Source: an uncultured Spirochaetales bacterium (GTDB lineage Bacteria > Spirochaetota > Spirochaetia > Sphaerochaetales > Sphaerochaetaceae). Taken from it: DNA of 41,317 bases. Below, piece after piece: positions 25,133-29,263 of this stretch. The stretch spans positions 1 through 41,317 of the forward strand of contig CASFLH010000011.1 of assembly GCA_949295505.1 (NCBI GenBank). The letters are read 5' to 3'. Under the pieces are notes generated by a model, which was not told the origin of the DNA, did not search any database, and worked only from the letters and a program-made list of their open reading frames with translations. A program made the translations under genes and the position numbers. The first letter of the stretch is position 1. Every line of letters starts with the position of its first letter.

Positions 25133-25168
25133 GAAAACAAGAGCCTGCTCCTGACGAGGAACAGGCTC
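25132..25168 (-). terminator. Terminator between MATE and thrC
   Basis: Stem GAGCCTG / CAGGCTC (25141-25168) with a further inner pairing. On the minus strand it is followed by TTGTTTTCTC, so it terminates thrC; on the plus side only ATTGCTT follows and efficiency for the MATE transcript is doubtful. Confidence 0.82.
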
Positions 25169-25185: not shown

Positions 25186-26442
25186 TCAGCTGAAAAGCAG
25201 ATGATAATCAGCTGGGATTTCCACCGATGACGGCGTCTTATGCATGATCTCATAGAGATTCTTCGGTATCGCGATTTCCCTTCCGATCAGCGGCTCGACA
25301 ATATCATTGAATTTAGCGGGATGCGCTGTAGAGACCACTACGGAATACGGCTCAGCGACATGATCCCTTCTCACCCGTTCTCCGCATGCCGTATGAGGAC
25401 AGATTACATATCCTGATTCATCATAGACTTCCTTGATTGTCTTCCTGATCTCATCATCCGTCACTGAATAAGCGGATACATTGTCACGGAATGCCTCGAT
25501 ATCAGGGAACATGGCAAAAAGTCTCTCGATATTCGAAGGCGCGCCAACATCCATCGCGTTGGCAAGTGTCTTCAAAGAAGGTCTCGGTTCATACTTTCCT
25601 GTCTCAAGGTAGTCGGTAATCGGACGATTAGCATTGCACGCGAGGACAATACGCTTTATGGGAGCACCCATCGCTTTTGCCCAGTATGCGCCCGTTGCGT
25701 TTCCGACATTGCCTGATGGGATGACAAATACAGCTTCCTCCCCGTATTTCAGCTGGTAAATCGAAGAGGCATAGACGTAGTAAGCCATCTGAGGAAGCAA
25801 CCGCCCGAGATTGATTGAATTAGCGCTGGAAAGTCCCTTGAGATCAGGATCCATGAAGGCTTCCTTTACCATTCTCTGGCAGTCATCGAATGAGCCATCG
25901 ACTTCATAGCTGGAGACATTGCCATCCCACCCGGTGAGCTGCATGCGCTGTCTCTCGGCAACCCTTCCCTTGGGAAACAGGACCTTCACTGCAAGGTGAT
26001 TCCTGCCATGGAATGCCGACGCGACAGCCCCTCCGGTATCACCGGATGTTGCAACAAGGATCGTCAGATCCTCATTTCTCTTCTCAAGAAGCTTCTCCAT
26101 GGAAAAGGCAAGGAATCTGGCGCCGAAATCCTTGAACGCCGCAGTAGGCCCGAAATAGAGCTCTAGCGTGTCCTTGCCACCTTCGCTATGGAATGGGACG
26201 GGAAAACTGAACGCACTGCGGCAGATCTCCTCGAGGTCTCCCTCAAGCTCATCACCTTCAAAATAAGGGATGAGGGCCTGATACATCGCATACCATGCGC
26301 CCCTTTCAAGAGTGAATGAATCAGGAAGGCATGGAATGCTTTCCGGCATAAAGAGGCCCCCATCCGGAGCAAGTCCCTTAAGTATTGCGTCAGAAGCGGA
26401 AAACCACTCGCCGCCTTCTGCTCTCGTCGAAATGAATCTCAT
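25186..26442 (-). CDS. thrC: Threonine synthase
   Basis: 418-aa PLP enzyme making L-threonine from O-phosphohomoserine, last step of the threonine pathway. Start ATG 26442 with GGAGG 4-5 nt upstream. Seen: N-terminal MRFISTR, GLAPDGGLFMPE, the PLP lysine Lys104 in GPTAAFKDFG, VATSGDTGGAVASAFHG, VIPSGNVGNATGAYWAK and a C-terminal TAHPAKFNDIVEPLIG. Matches the bacterial/fungal long form without the plant SAM-binding extension. It follows the thrA-like gene by 9 bp, forming an operon. Confidence 0.97.
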   Translation of the reverse strand: MRFISTRAEGGEWFSASDAILKGLAPDGGLFMPESIPCLPDSFTLERGAWYAMYQALIPYFEGDELEGDLEEICRSAFSFPVPFHSEGGKDTLELYFGPTAAFKDFGARFLAFSMEKLLEKRNEDLTILVATSGDTGGAVASAFHGRNHLAVKVLFPKGRVAERQRMQLTGWDGNVSSYEVDGSFDDCQRMVKEAFMDPDLKGLSSANSINLGRLLPQMAYYVYASSIYQLKYGEEAVFVIPSGNVGNATGAYWAKAMGAPIKRIVLACNANRPITDYLETGKYEPRPSLKTLANAMDVGAPSNIERLFAMFPDIEAFRDNVSAYSVTDDEIRKTIKEVYDESGYVICPHTACGERVRRDHVAEPYSVVVSTAHPAKFNDIVEPLIGREIAIPKNLYEIMHKTPSSVEIPADYHLLFS

Positions 26443-26451
26443 GTTTCCTCC

Positions 26452-28851
26452 TTATACCTTTGATCCGAGGTAGGCGCTCAGACGGAGGATATCCGCAAAA
26501 ACACCACCCGCAGTCACCTCAGGGCCAGCCCCCGGTCCTTTGATCACCAATGGCTGGCTGTCATATCTTGCTGTCCTGAAGGAAATGACATTATCCGTTC
26601 CCTTCGCCTGCGAGAAAGGATGATCCTCAGGATACTCCTTGAGAGCGACGGAGCATACGCCATCCTCCACTTTGCCGACATAGCGGAGTCTCATTCCCTT
26701 AGCCTTGGCGGCATTATAAAGCGAAAGCATATGCTCATCCATATCGCTGAGACCTGCAAGGAAATCATCAAGGGAAAGATCCCTCATGCTCTCTGGCACA
26801 AGCGATTCAACAGCGATATCAGCAGTCTCGGTCGTGTATCCAAGCTCGCGGGCAAGAATGACAGTCTTTCTGGCAACATCCATCCCGGAAAGATCATCTC
26901 TCGGATCCGGCTCCGTATAACCAAGGCTCCTAGCCTTCTTAACAAGTTCGGAGAACGGCACGCTGCCGTCATATTCCGAGAACAGCCAGCAAAGCGTACC
27001 TGATACCATTCCTTCCACGCTTATCACCCTGTCTCCGGTTTCACGGAGATCCTTCAGGGTGCATATCACAGGAAGTCCTGCACCTACGGTTGTCTCATAG
27101 AGGAACTTCCGACCGGTCTTCCTGGTGCTTTCCATAAGCTCCCGGTAATAGCTGTACGGGCCTGCCCCAGCTTTCTTATTGGGAGTGATCACATGGAAAC
27201 CGTTGTTGATCAGCTTCACATACTGCATTGCCCTCGACTCAGAGGACGTGCAGTCGATTATGACTTTATGAGGATAGTACTGTGCGGCAATGTGGGAAAG
27301 GAAGATTGACTCATTGTATGCAATCGCCTCCTTCCGGAACTTTTCCCTCCATGAGGAAAGCTCGATGCCCTCTTCTGAAAGCAGCATCTTCTTCGAAGTG
27401 GCGATGCCGCGCACTCTGATATCGAGATCAAACTCTCTTCTGAGCCTGTCACTCTCTGCTGAAAGCTGGTCAAGGAGTGTTCCTCCGATATTCCCTGGTC
27501 CGAAGAGACCGACAGAGAGAGTCTGCTGGGAAAGGAAGAAGACGGAATGGAGCGCCCTCAGAGCCCTGCCGCTCTCATCTGCCTTGATAACGGCGCTGAT
27601 ATTCCTCTCGGAAGATCCCTGCGCGATGGCGCGCACGTTGATTCCTGCCCTACCTAGGGAGGAGAGGAACGCACCGGCAGTACCCGTATGCCCGGGCATT
27701 CCCTCGCCGACAGCTGCGATAATCGCGAGATCTGTCTCCGAATCGATGGCAGAGATTCCTTTTTCCGCGATCTCATGTGAGAATTCAGCTTTTATCGTGC
27801 GGACAGCCTCGGAAGCCTGACGCTGAGGGACGCAGAAGCAGATGGAATACTCAGAGGATGCCTGTGATATGAGGATCACTGAAATACGCTCGTTCCTGAG
27901 CGCCGTGAAAAGCCTTGAGGAGAATCCGGGAACACCGGACATGCCGGAACCTTCAACATTGATCATCGCAACGCTGCGCACAACAGAGAATGCTTTTACA
28001 AGCAGCCCATCATCAACAGCTTTCCCTGTTATCTCAGTGCCTTTCTCCTCGATATCCCCCCAGCAGCGCAGCGTTATCGTGATGCCGGCATCGGAGGCTG
28101 GCTGGAACGACTGCGGATGGATGATAGGAGCTCCGAAGAACGAGAGCTCAGTGGCTTCGCTGTATGTAAGATGGCGGATGACAGAAGCAGAAGGAACGTC
28201 CTTGCGGGAGGCAGTGCACAGAGGAGAACGTGAATTCCAGAAGGTGACAGGTGCTTTGTGAGCCGCAGCGATAAGAGAAGCAGTGTACTCACTTTCTCCT
28301 TCCTTTCTCGGTTTTCCCGCAGCATCTGTCGAAGCGGGAATGAGGAAGAGCTCCCCTGTCACGAAAACAGCGCCTTCAGGGAACGATGCTGTTTCCAATG
28401 CCGCCCTAGGTGTCAGAACACAGGAGGGGATACCCGCCTCGCTGAAGGCTTCAGAGATGATCCACGACAGAAAGAGCATCGTAAGCTCTCCCATGTACCG
28501 CCCTGCAGCTTCCGGAACATCCTTCATGATCCAGACAGCACGAAGAACTTCCTCCATATCGGAGAAGGCACTGTTCATCTTCTCCTGCACGGACTCCGGA
28601 GCCTCAAGGACACCCTCCGCCAGTTCATTCCAGATGCTCTGGCTCTTTTCAAGGCGGCTCCACAGCTTCTCCTCGTTCTCAGCTGCTGCAGCCAGAAGCC
28701 CGTCAAGCTGATAATCAGACGAGCGTACAGGTGACAGGACAAAGACTTCGGTCTTCTCCTCTTCTTCCCTGAAGAGGGATATCAGTTTTCTCACTCCCTG
28801 CGGGTGGGAGAGCATTGCACCTTCTAGCGCATGGATACGAACGGAATGCAT
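26452..28851 (-). CDS. thrA: ThrA-like protein: degenerate aspartate kinase domain fused to homoserine dehydrogenase
   Basis: 799 aa from ATG 28851, six bases after GGAG; an ATG 12 bp earlier is the alternative. Layout follows E. coli ThrA: kinase-like domain (about 1-290), two ACT regions (about 290-440; IAAVGEGMPGHTGTAGAFLS is the second), and homoserine dehydrogenase (about 445-799). The dehydrogenase half looks intact: GLFGPGNIGG, TPNKKAGAG, ETTVGAGLPV and DDLSGMDVARKTVILAREL. The kinase half is not: the N-terminal KFGGTSV is replaced by RIHALEGAM, so the catalytic lysine is missing; the GSDYxA motif reads GESEYTA, although the MGEL glutamate remains. I infer an active dehydrogenase with a non-catalytic, possibly regulatory kinase fold. 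A separate aspartate kinase would be required elsewhere. Confidence 0.88.
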   Translation of the reverse strand: MHSVRIHALEGAMLSHPQGVRKLISLFREEEEKTEVFVLSPVRSSDYQLDGLLAAAAENEEKLWSRLEKSQSIWNELAEGVLEAPESVQEKMNSAFSDMEEVLRAVWIMKDVPEAAGRYMGELTMLFLSWIISEAFSEAGIPSCVLTPRAALETASFPEGAVFVTGELFLIPASTDAAGKPRKEGESEYTASLIAAAHKAPVTFWNSRSPLCTASRKDVPSASVIRHLTYSEATELSFFGAPIIHPQSFQPASDAGITITLRCWGDIEEKGTEITGKAVDDGLLVKAFSVVRSVAMINVEGSGMSGVPGFSSRLFTALRNERISVILISQASSEYSICFCVPQRQASEAVRTIKAEFSHEIAEKGISAIDSETDLAIIAAVGEGMPGHTGTAGAFLSSLGRAGINVRAIAQGSSERNISAVIKADESGRALRALHSVFFLSQQTLSVGLFGPGNIGGTLLDQLSAESDRLRREFDLDIRVRGIATSKKMLLSEEGIELSSWREKFRKEAIAYNESIFLSHIAAQYYPHKVIIDCTSSESRAMQYVKLINNGFHVITPNKKAGAGPYSYYRELMESTRKTGRKFLYETTVGAGLPVICTLKDLRETGDRVISVEGMVSGTLCWLFSEYDGSVPFSELVKKARSLGYTEPDPRDDLSGMDVARKTVILARELGYTTETADIAVESLVPESMRDLSLDDFLAGLSDMDEHMLSLYNAAKAKGMRLRYVGKVEDGVCSVALKEYPEDHPFSQAKGTDNVISFRTARYDSQPLVIKGPGAGPEVTAGGVFADILRLSAYLGSKV

Positions 28852-28868
28852 AGACATCTCCATATTCT

Positions 28869-28892
28869 GGAAAAGCTCCCTTTCGGGAGCCT
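28869..28892 (-). terminator. Terminator or attenuator between rpmB and the thrA-like gene
   Basis: Minus-strand GGCTCCC-GAAA-GGGAGC stem followed by TTTTCC, 18 nt before the thrA-like start. No promoter is evident between it and thrA. Confidence 0.75.
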
Positions 28893-28914: not shown

Positions 28915-29145
28915 TTATACGATCTTCTCGATCTTGCCGCTTCTCAGGCAGCGTGTACAGACCTTGATTGTTCTCGGCGTACCGTTGATGAGAGCCTTCA
29001 CGGAAACGAGATTGGGCTGGAATGTGCGCTTCTTGGTCACGCCGATATGCTGACCGACACCACCCTTCTTCTTAGCCTGTCCCTTGCGAGGAACGATGCT
29101 TCCGGAGATAGTTCCCTTGCCGCAGATTTCACATCTTCTTGCCAT
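28915..29145 (-). CDS. rpmB: 50S ribosomal protein L28
   Basis: 76-aa large-subunit ribosomal protein. Start ATG 29145 (MARRCEICGKGTISG) preceded by AAGGTGGAT; four extra in-frame codons upstream are unlikely. Seen: the CxxC pairs CEIC and CTRC, giving the zinc-ribbon form of L28; RTFQPNLVSVKALING; and VCTRCLRSGKIEKIV at the end. It is not next to rpmG as in many bacteria, but upstream of the threonine genes, separated by a terminator hairpin. Expression should be high; a TATAAG box lies about 14 bp before the start but its -35 is unclear. Confidence 0.96.
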   Translation of the reverse strand: MARRCEICGKGTISGSIVPRKGQAKKKGGVGQHIGVTKKRTFQPNLVSVKALINGTPRTIKVCTRCLRSGKIEKIV

Positions 29146-29263
29146 GTTATCATCCACCTTATATTGTTGTCTGAAAGAGAGGCTTCCTTTTCAGAATGCC
29201 AGTCACAGCTAAGAGACTATACATGAACGCCTAATCTTTGTAAATAGCTATAGGAGGATGAAC

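Follow-up and report, generated by a model that had tools for sequence, protein, structure and literature searches.

The thrA-like gene of an uncultured member of the Sphaerochaetaceae probably encodes a threonine-regulated homoserine dehydrogenase to which an aspartokinase pseudoenzyme is fused as a scaffold, aspartyl phosphate being made by a separate enzyme, LysC. Despite passing the annotation model for the bifunctional enzyme, the protein is likely, from its motifs, to have the single function of homoserine dehydrogenase. The gene lies in the window, the whole stretch of 41,317 nucleotides that was analysed, in the following setting.

26452–28863, minus strand: thrA-like gene, an open reading frame of 803 amino acids with the domain order of ThrA
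28300–28863, minus strand: degenerate aspartokinase N-lobe (residues 1–188), from a profile match to intact ThrA N-lobes and the predicted fold
28819–28836, minus strand: IHALEG (residues 10–15) replacing VLKFGG in the alignment, with Ala12 equivalent to the catalytic Lys
28009–28299, minus strand: kinase C-lobe (residues 189–285), its fold predicted to remain, its motifs for substrate and ATP gone
28279–28299, minus strand: GESEYTA (residues 189–195) aligned with NGSDYSA, the Asp replaced by Glu192 and the preceding Arg by Glu188
28225–28239, minus strand: WNSRS (residues 209–213) aligned with the ATP-site WTDVD, Thr-Asp of TDVDG replaced by Asn210-Ser211
27535–27996, minus strand: two ACT domains (residues 290–443), threonine-site Gln334 and Gln415 present
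26455–27522, minus strand: homoserine dehydrogenase domain (residues 448–803), five checked catalytic residues present
25186–26442, minus strand: thrC, threonine synthase, directly 3' of the thrA-like gene
25141–25168, minus strand: terminator-like hairpin 3' of thrC, from a terminator scan
28915–29157, minus strand: rpmB (L28), directly 5' of the thrA-like gene

Pfam finds in the protein, in order, an amino acid kinase domain, two ACT domains, an NAD-binding domain and a homoserine dehydrogenase domain, the first of these (AA_kinase) matching over profile positions 74–231 only. Against the NCBIfam ThrA model, NF006959, the protein scores 800 bits (cut-off 726), and the best stretch of the match begins at residue 190, profile position 206. 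An earlier note on this DNA had reported the replacement of KFGGTSV by RIHALEGAM and of GSDYxA by GESEYTA. Both changes are borne out, at residues 9–17 and 189–195 respectively; the interval to which they were assigned, 28560–28851, holds the first motif, whilst GESEYTA falls outside it. Met1 of E. coli ThrA aligns with residue 8 of the window protein, the two starts thus lying within seven residues of each other, and the open frame reaches only 17 further codons upstream. The N-terminus has therefore diverged and is not missing. This rules out a frameshift, a lost 5' end or a wrong start, in keeping with the earlier view that no frameshift explains the changes. The gene upstream is indeed rpmB, but the terminator said to lie there fares less well: the intergenic hairpin (28875–28890) passes the terminator scan on the plus strand only, so that a coding-strand terminator upstream of thrA is weak at best.

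The loss extends across the family. ThrA matches among 139 family genomes comprise 104 of full-length type (at least 775 bits; in one case a contig end truncates the match) and six shorter ones. From the 104, 91 genomes yielded a sample of 93 distinct full-length sequences (13 genomes were not included), which was compared with 12 intact references, namely E. coli ThrA and MetL and ten spirochaete ThrA sequences. The Lys of KFGGTSV, present in all 12 references, is Ala in 85 of the family sequences, Ser in seven and a gap in one. Lys5, Glu127, Arg204 and Asp208 (E. coli numbering) are each found in 0/93 of the family and 12/12 of the intact proteins. Thr227 (0/93 versus 10/12), Asp228 (1/93 versus 12/12), Asp230 (0/93 versus 10/12) and Lys263 (1/93 versus 9/12) have gone the same way. 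The Asp column of GSD holds Glu in 92 sequences and Gln in one, and 83 of the 93 have an acidic residue (Glu or Asp) in place of the preceding Arg, with Ser191 of the motif retained in 72. A search found no published catalytic residue numbers; the roles given to these catalytic and ATP-site residues are those of aspartokinase structures. On that footing the aspartokinase residues, Lys, Glu of RGE, Arg and Asp of RxGSD and Thr of TDV, are each absent from all 93. A catalytic lysine relocated elsewhere, which would have spoken against a dead kinase, is not seen, as no column in residues 5–285 has Lys in at least 90% of the 93 family sequences. The commonest Lys column of the kinase region, position 26, reaches 69/93 and is the sole column with Lys in at least 40. 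An assembly error can be dismissed, the state being identical in 93 distinct family sequences.

The remainder of the protein is retained. Both threonine-site glutamines of the ACT pair and five checked dehydrogenase residues (the catalytic E, D, D, K and K) are present in 93/93 family sequences, in keeping with the earlier view that the ACT domains and the dehydrogenase half look intact. The fold of the kinase appears to have been kept as well. In HHalign the N-lobe is colinear with intact ThrA N-lobes (probability 97.5%, E 6e-12) and matches ThrA plus LysC N-lobes at 96.7%, the match to LysC N-lobes alone being weak (probability 52%, E 1.4e-4). Whilst a model of the full-length protein is poor (pLDDT 44.6), one of residues 1–290 is of moderate quality (pLDDT 68, pTM 0.67, from 8 similar sequences). 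The best 40 rows of a Foldseek search with it are aspartokinases, and it superposes on the threonine-sensitive aspartokinase of M. jannaschii with a Z score of 17.9 (266 aligned residues, 4.2 Å rmsd), against about 12 for other amino-acid kinases; the N-acetylglutamate synthase structures 2r8v and 3d2p are among the matches, at Z 11.9. On this model of pLDDT 68 the N-terminal half is predicted to have an aspartokinase fold. Residue counts, profile alignment and this superposition agree with the earlier claim of dead kinase motifs on a retained fold. As judged by motif, the protein would be an amino-acid-kinase pseudoenzyme, a putatively dead kinase fold fused to a dehydrogenase predicted to be active.

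Median dN/dS is 0.093 in the N-lobe (28 usable close pairs, range 0.044–0.249), 0.059 in the C-lobe (29 pairs), 0.039 in the ACT region (23) and 0.056 in the dehydrogenase (27), the usable pairs being drawn from 58 close pairs and not independent of each other. These medians of 0.04–0.09 per region (range 0.007–0.304) rule out a recent pseudogene. Mean pairwise identity within the family is 0.35 in the N-lobe and 0.54–0.66 in the other regions; for nine intact outgroup ThrA sequences the corresponding values are 0.33 and 0.46–0.55. Two tryptophans have become conserved in the N-lobe. W111 occurs in 92/93 family sequences and in both partly decayed sequences described below, W78 in 88/93 and in neither of those two, and each is found in 0/12 intact ThrA sequences, which argues for constraint on the N-lobe.

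The search of the genome for a separate, intact aspartokinase that the earlier note had proposed was successful. AA_kinase matches four proteins of the genome to which the window belongs, a draft of 113 contigs with a completeness of about 80%: the window ThrA, an aspartokinase (L001), one that by inspection reads as a carbamate kinase, and one other. L001 is a protein of 436 amino acids with intact KFGGSSV, RGGSDITG and WTDVSG motifs. A second gene of the kind predicted is present, and its product may supply the aspartyl phosphate. A LysC match is present in 105/110 family genomes with a pseudo-ThrA-type match. It is absent from the other five (G009, G033, G058, G063 and G104, of which G033 and G063 are 94–95% complete drafts), which counts against a takeover by LysC. 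At 42 LysC loci (36 from the family, five from other spirochaetes and one from E. coli) the Lys, Glu, Arg, GSD Asp and TDV Asp are present in 42/42, and the Thr of TDV in 38/42.

For the dehydrogenase step, a PF00742 search of the window's draft genome found the window ThrA as sole match. Sixteen genomes were searched in this way, 11 with pseudo-ThrA, and in nine of these it is the sole match (G000, the window's own genome, and G091, G093, G076, G479, G063, G029, G028 and G136). G023 and G025 carry a second, single-function homoserine dehydrogenase gene beside it. Semialdehyde-dehydrogenase-type matches (PF02774, a model not specific for aspartate) occur in 7/7 genomes searched. A canonical homoserine kinase was not found in the window's genome, about 80% complete, where the thrB model gives 19 bits against a cut-off of 168 and TIGR02535 has no match, nor do the two models match in the closed genomes of three relatives (G091, G093 and G076); an APH-fold match might fill this step. 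Two genomes that are 94–98% complete, G069 and G002, have a LysC match and no homoserine dehydrogenase match, and are perhaps threonine and methionine auxotrophs.

Taken with what is known of these enzyme families, the intact motifs suggest that LysC would make aspartyl phosphate for the whole pathway, that the window ThrA would convert aspartate semialdehyde to homoserine, and that threonine binding to the ACT pair would shut the dehydrogenase off. The apparently dead kinase fold, to go by its conservation, has probably been kept to hold the ACT pair and the oligomer such that the threonine signal reaches the dehydrogenase. The kinase fold had earlier been proposed as the sensor of threonine. 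This part of the proposal is not upheld as worded: the motifs place threonine binding in the ACT pair, and "scaffold" describes the kinase fold more aptly.

Other readings of the kinase half deserve consideration. It may be a slowly decaying relic with at most a role in solubility, the dehydrogenase and ACT pair working independently of it. In favour of this, and against a scaffold, sequence change is quicker in the N-lobe than in other regions, as expected of slow decay, with lower identity and higher dN/dS; intact ThrA outgroups, however, have an N-lobe identity of 0.33 as well. The N-lobe is also trimmed in three lineages (g22, g10 and g7), and one relative has an early stop codon within it. 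Yet length and colinearity are preserved across 93 distinct sequences, median dN/dS is still near 0.09, and the conserved W78 and W111 speak of constraint, so that a relic seems unlikely, albeit not implausible. The newly conserved N-lobe residues could instead belong to a remodelled pocket binding a ligand other than aspartate or ATP, by analogy with the binding of arginine by the kinase domain of N-acetylglutamate synthase, a precedent described in PMC5146650. Resting on a model of only moderate quality (pLDDT 68), such a pocket would be rather improbable. That the kinase remains active by way of other residues can scarcely be credited: the predicted fold is retained, Ser191 of GSD persists in 72/93 and Lys at position 26 in 69/93, but Lys, Glu, Arg and Asp are missing from 93/93 and the region is without any Lys column reaching 90%.

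A bolder proposal is that the dead half assembles with LysC into mixed dimers or tetramers, by which threonine bound to the ACT domains of ThrA would control the first step of the pathway in trans. The LysC proteins of G136 and G137 (both g22) and of G028 (g10), L150, L151 and L152, have no Pfam ACT match, and their tails beyond the kinase domain measure 51–83 residues, compared with 159–164 in L120–L149. In the third g22 genome, G138, LysC is truncated by contig ends. The same three genomes have a trimmed ThrA N-lobe and a ThrA that retains the ACT region, and a pairing of LysC with ThrA would account for the short tails. A missing Pfam ACT match in itself means little, since L153–L155, with tails of 139–162 residues, lack one too, and the loss of the second threonine-site Gln in g22 ThrA argues against the pairing, which we regard as decidedly doubtful. 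Partial parallels exist. Corynebacterium-type aspartokinase is an alpha2beta2 assembly in which beta consists of ACT domains only, and TIGR02078 stands for paired Pyrococcus kinase subunits. As in the putative ThrA–LysC complex, kinase and regulatory ACT domains there lie on different polypeptides, but in the window the ACT-bearing protein is a dehydrogenase.

Returning to the scaffold, the window ThrA shares with E. coli ThrA (NF006959) the kinase-ACT-ACT-dehydrogenase order, the threonine-site glutamines and the dehydrogenase residues, and differs in having lost the catalytic and ATP-site residues of the kinase. Monofunctional homoserine dehydrogenases with an ACT domain and under threonine control exist; they resemble the window protein in their single activity so controlled, and differ from it in having no kinase fold. 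The closest precedent is N-acetylglutamate synthase, which likewise joins an amino-acid-kinase fold to a different enzyme and has retained it in a regulatory role. Its arginine site is in the kinase domain, whereas the window ThrA is predicted to bind threonine in ACT domains apart from the kinase fold and has a dehydrogenase as fusion partner. A study of P. aeruginosa ArgA is said to deal with ancestral kinase activity. Regulatory use of amino-acid-kinase domains is thus already known (N-acetylglutamate synthase, PMC5146650). Among the papers listed by a search of open-licence sources, outside which most subscription papers lie, none deals with a dead aspartokinase half in ThrA, which is only a weak sign that no such report exists. 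A textbook bifunctional enzyme seems here to have lost one activity family-wide with its fold kept, and NF006959 still annotates it as bifunctional. In metabolic models, ThrA genes of the family should not be counted as aspartokinases.

ThrA model matches occur in 291/392 genomes of the phylum. Among the 29 full-length family matches listed, the profile start is 194–207 in 22, 174 in one and 1–30 in six; the full-length matches listed outside the family start at 1–4, except in G431 (18) and G390 (65). The match start is only a rough marker of a dead kinase, being unreliable in those six of 29 and in two partly decayed outgroup sequences that start at 3–4, and residue counts were accordingly taken from alignments. 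Twelve spirochaete outgroup sequences were chosen from the listed matches (families f3, f4, f8, f12, f14 and f19). In ten of these the Lys, Glu, Arg and Asp of the kinase are all present; the other two, from Spirochaeta smaragdinae (G479, L161) and G387 (L165), show partial decay. Four other families of the class have ThrA sequences whose kinase motifs are intact.

In a phylogeny built from the ACT and dehydrogenase regions (59 rows, of which 45 are from the family and 14 outgroup), a single change separates intact from decayed kinases, on a branch with support of 75/81 that recurs in 79% of 200 bootstrap trees. The ThrA of S. smaragdinae is placed within the rows of the family (91/97), and the branch leading to MetL is very long. 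S. smaragdinae has also been grouped with Sphaerochaeta in PMC3726837. The kinase was probably lost in the common ancestor of the family and the S. smaragdinae lineage, once LysC had made it redundant. The class thus offers a natural series, comprising intact, partly decayed (S. smaragdinae), dead, trimmed and mirror-image forms, with which the contribution of the kinase fold to threonine control, separate from catalysis, becomes directly testable.

The trimmed forms come from six family genomes (L103–L108), in g22, g10 and g7, in which the N-lobe is shortened further by roughly 50–100 residues (stop-to-stop frames of 653–749 amino acids) with the dehydrogenase kept; the N-lobe is thus dispensable in some lineages. 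L107 and L108 (from G025 and G023) are pseudo-ThrA sequences with a kinase region decayed further and the first threonine-site Gln changed to Arg. In one relative, G041 (L041 and L006), the N-lobe is interrupted early on by a stop codon, the remaining frame being open. Two draft genomes, G054 and G006, have two full-length ThrA copies each, reflecting either duplication or a mixed bin. The mirror image is seen in L167 and L168 (from G390 and G494), whose kinase motifs are intact and whose dehydrogenase has lost catalytic residues, TPNKK having become TLNTL and the DDLSGMDVARK motif lacking both Asp and Lys. In both genomes the contig also carries a separate homoserine dehydrogenase match, at a distance of about 3 kb.
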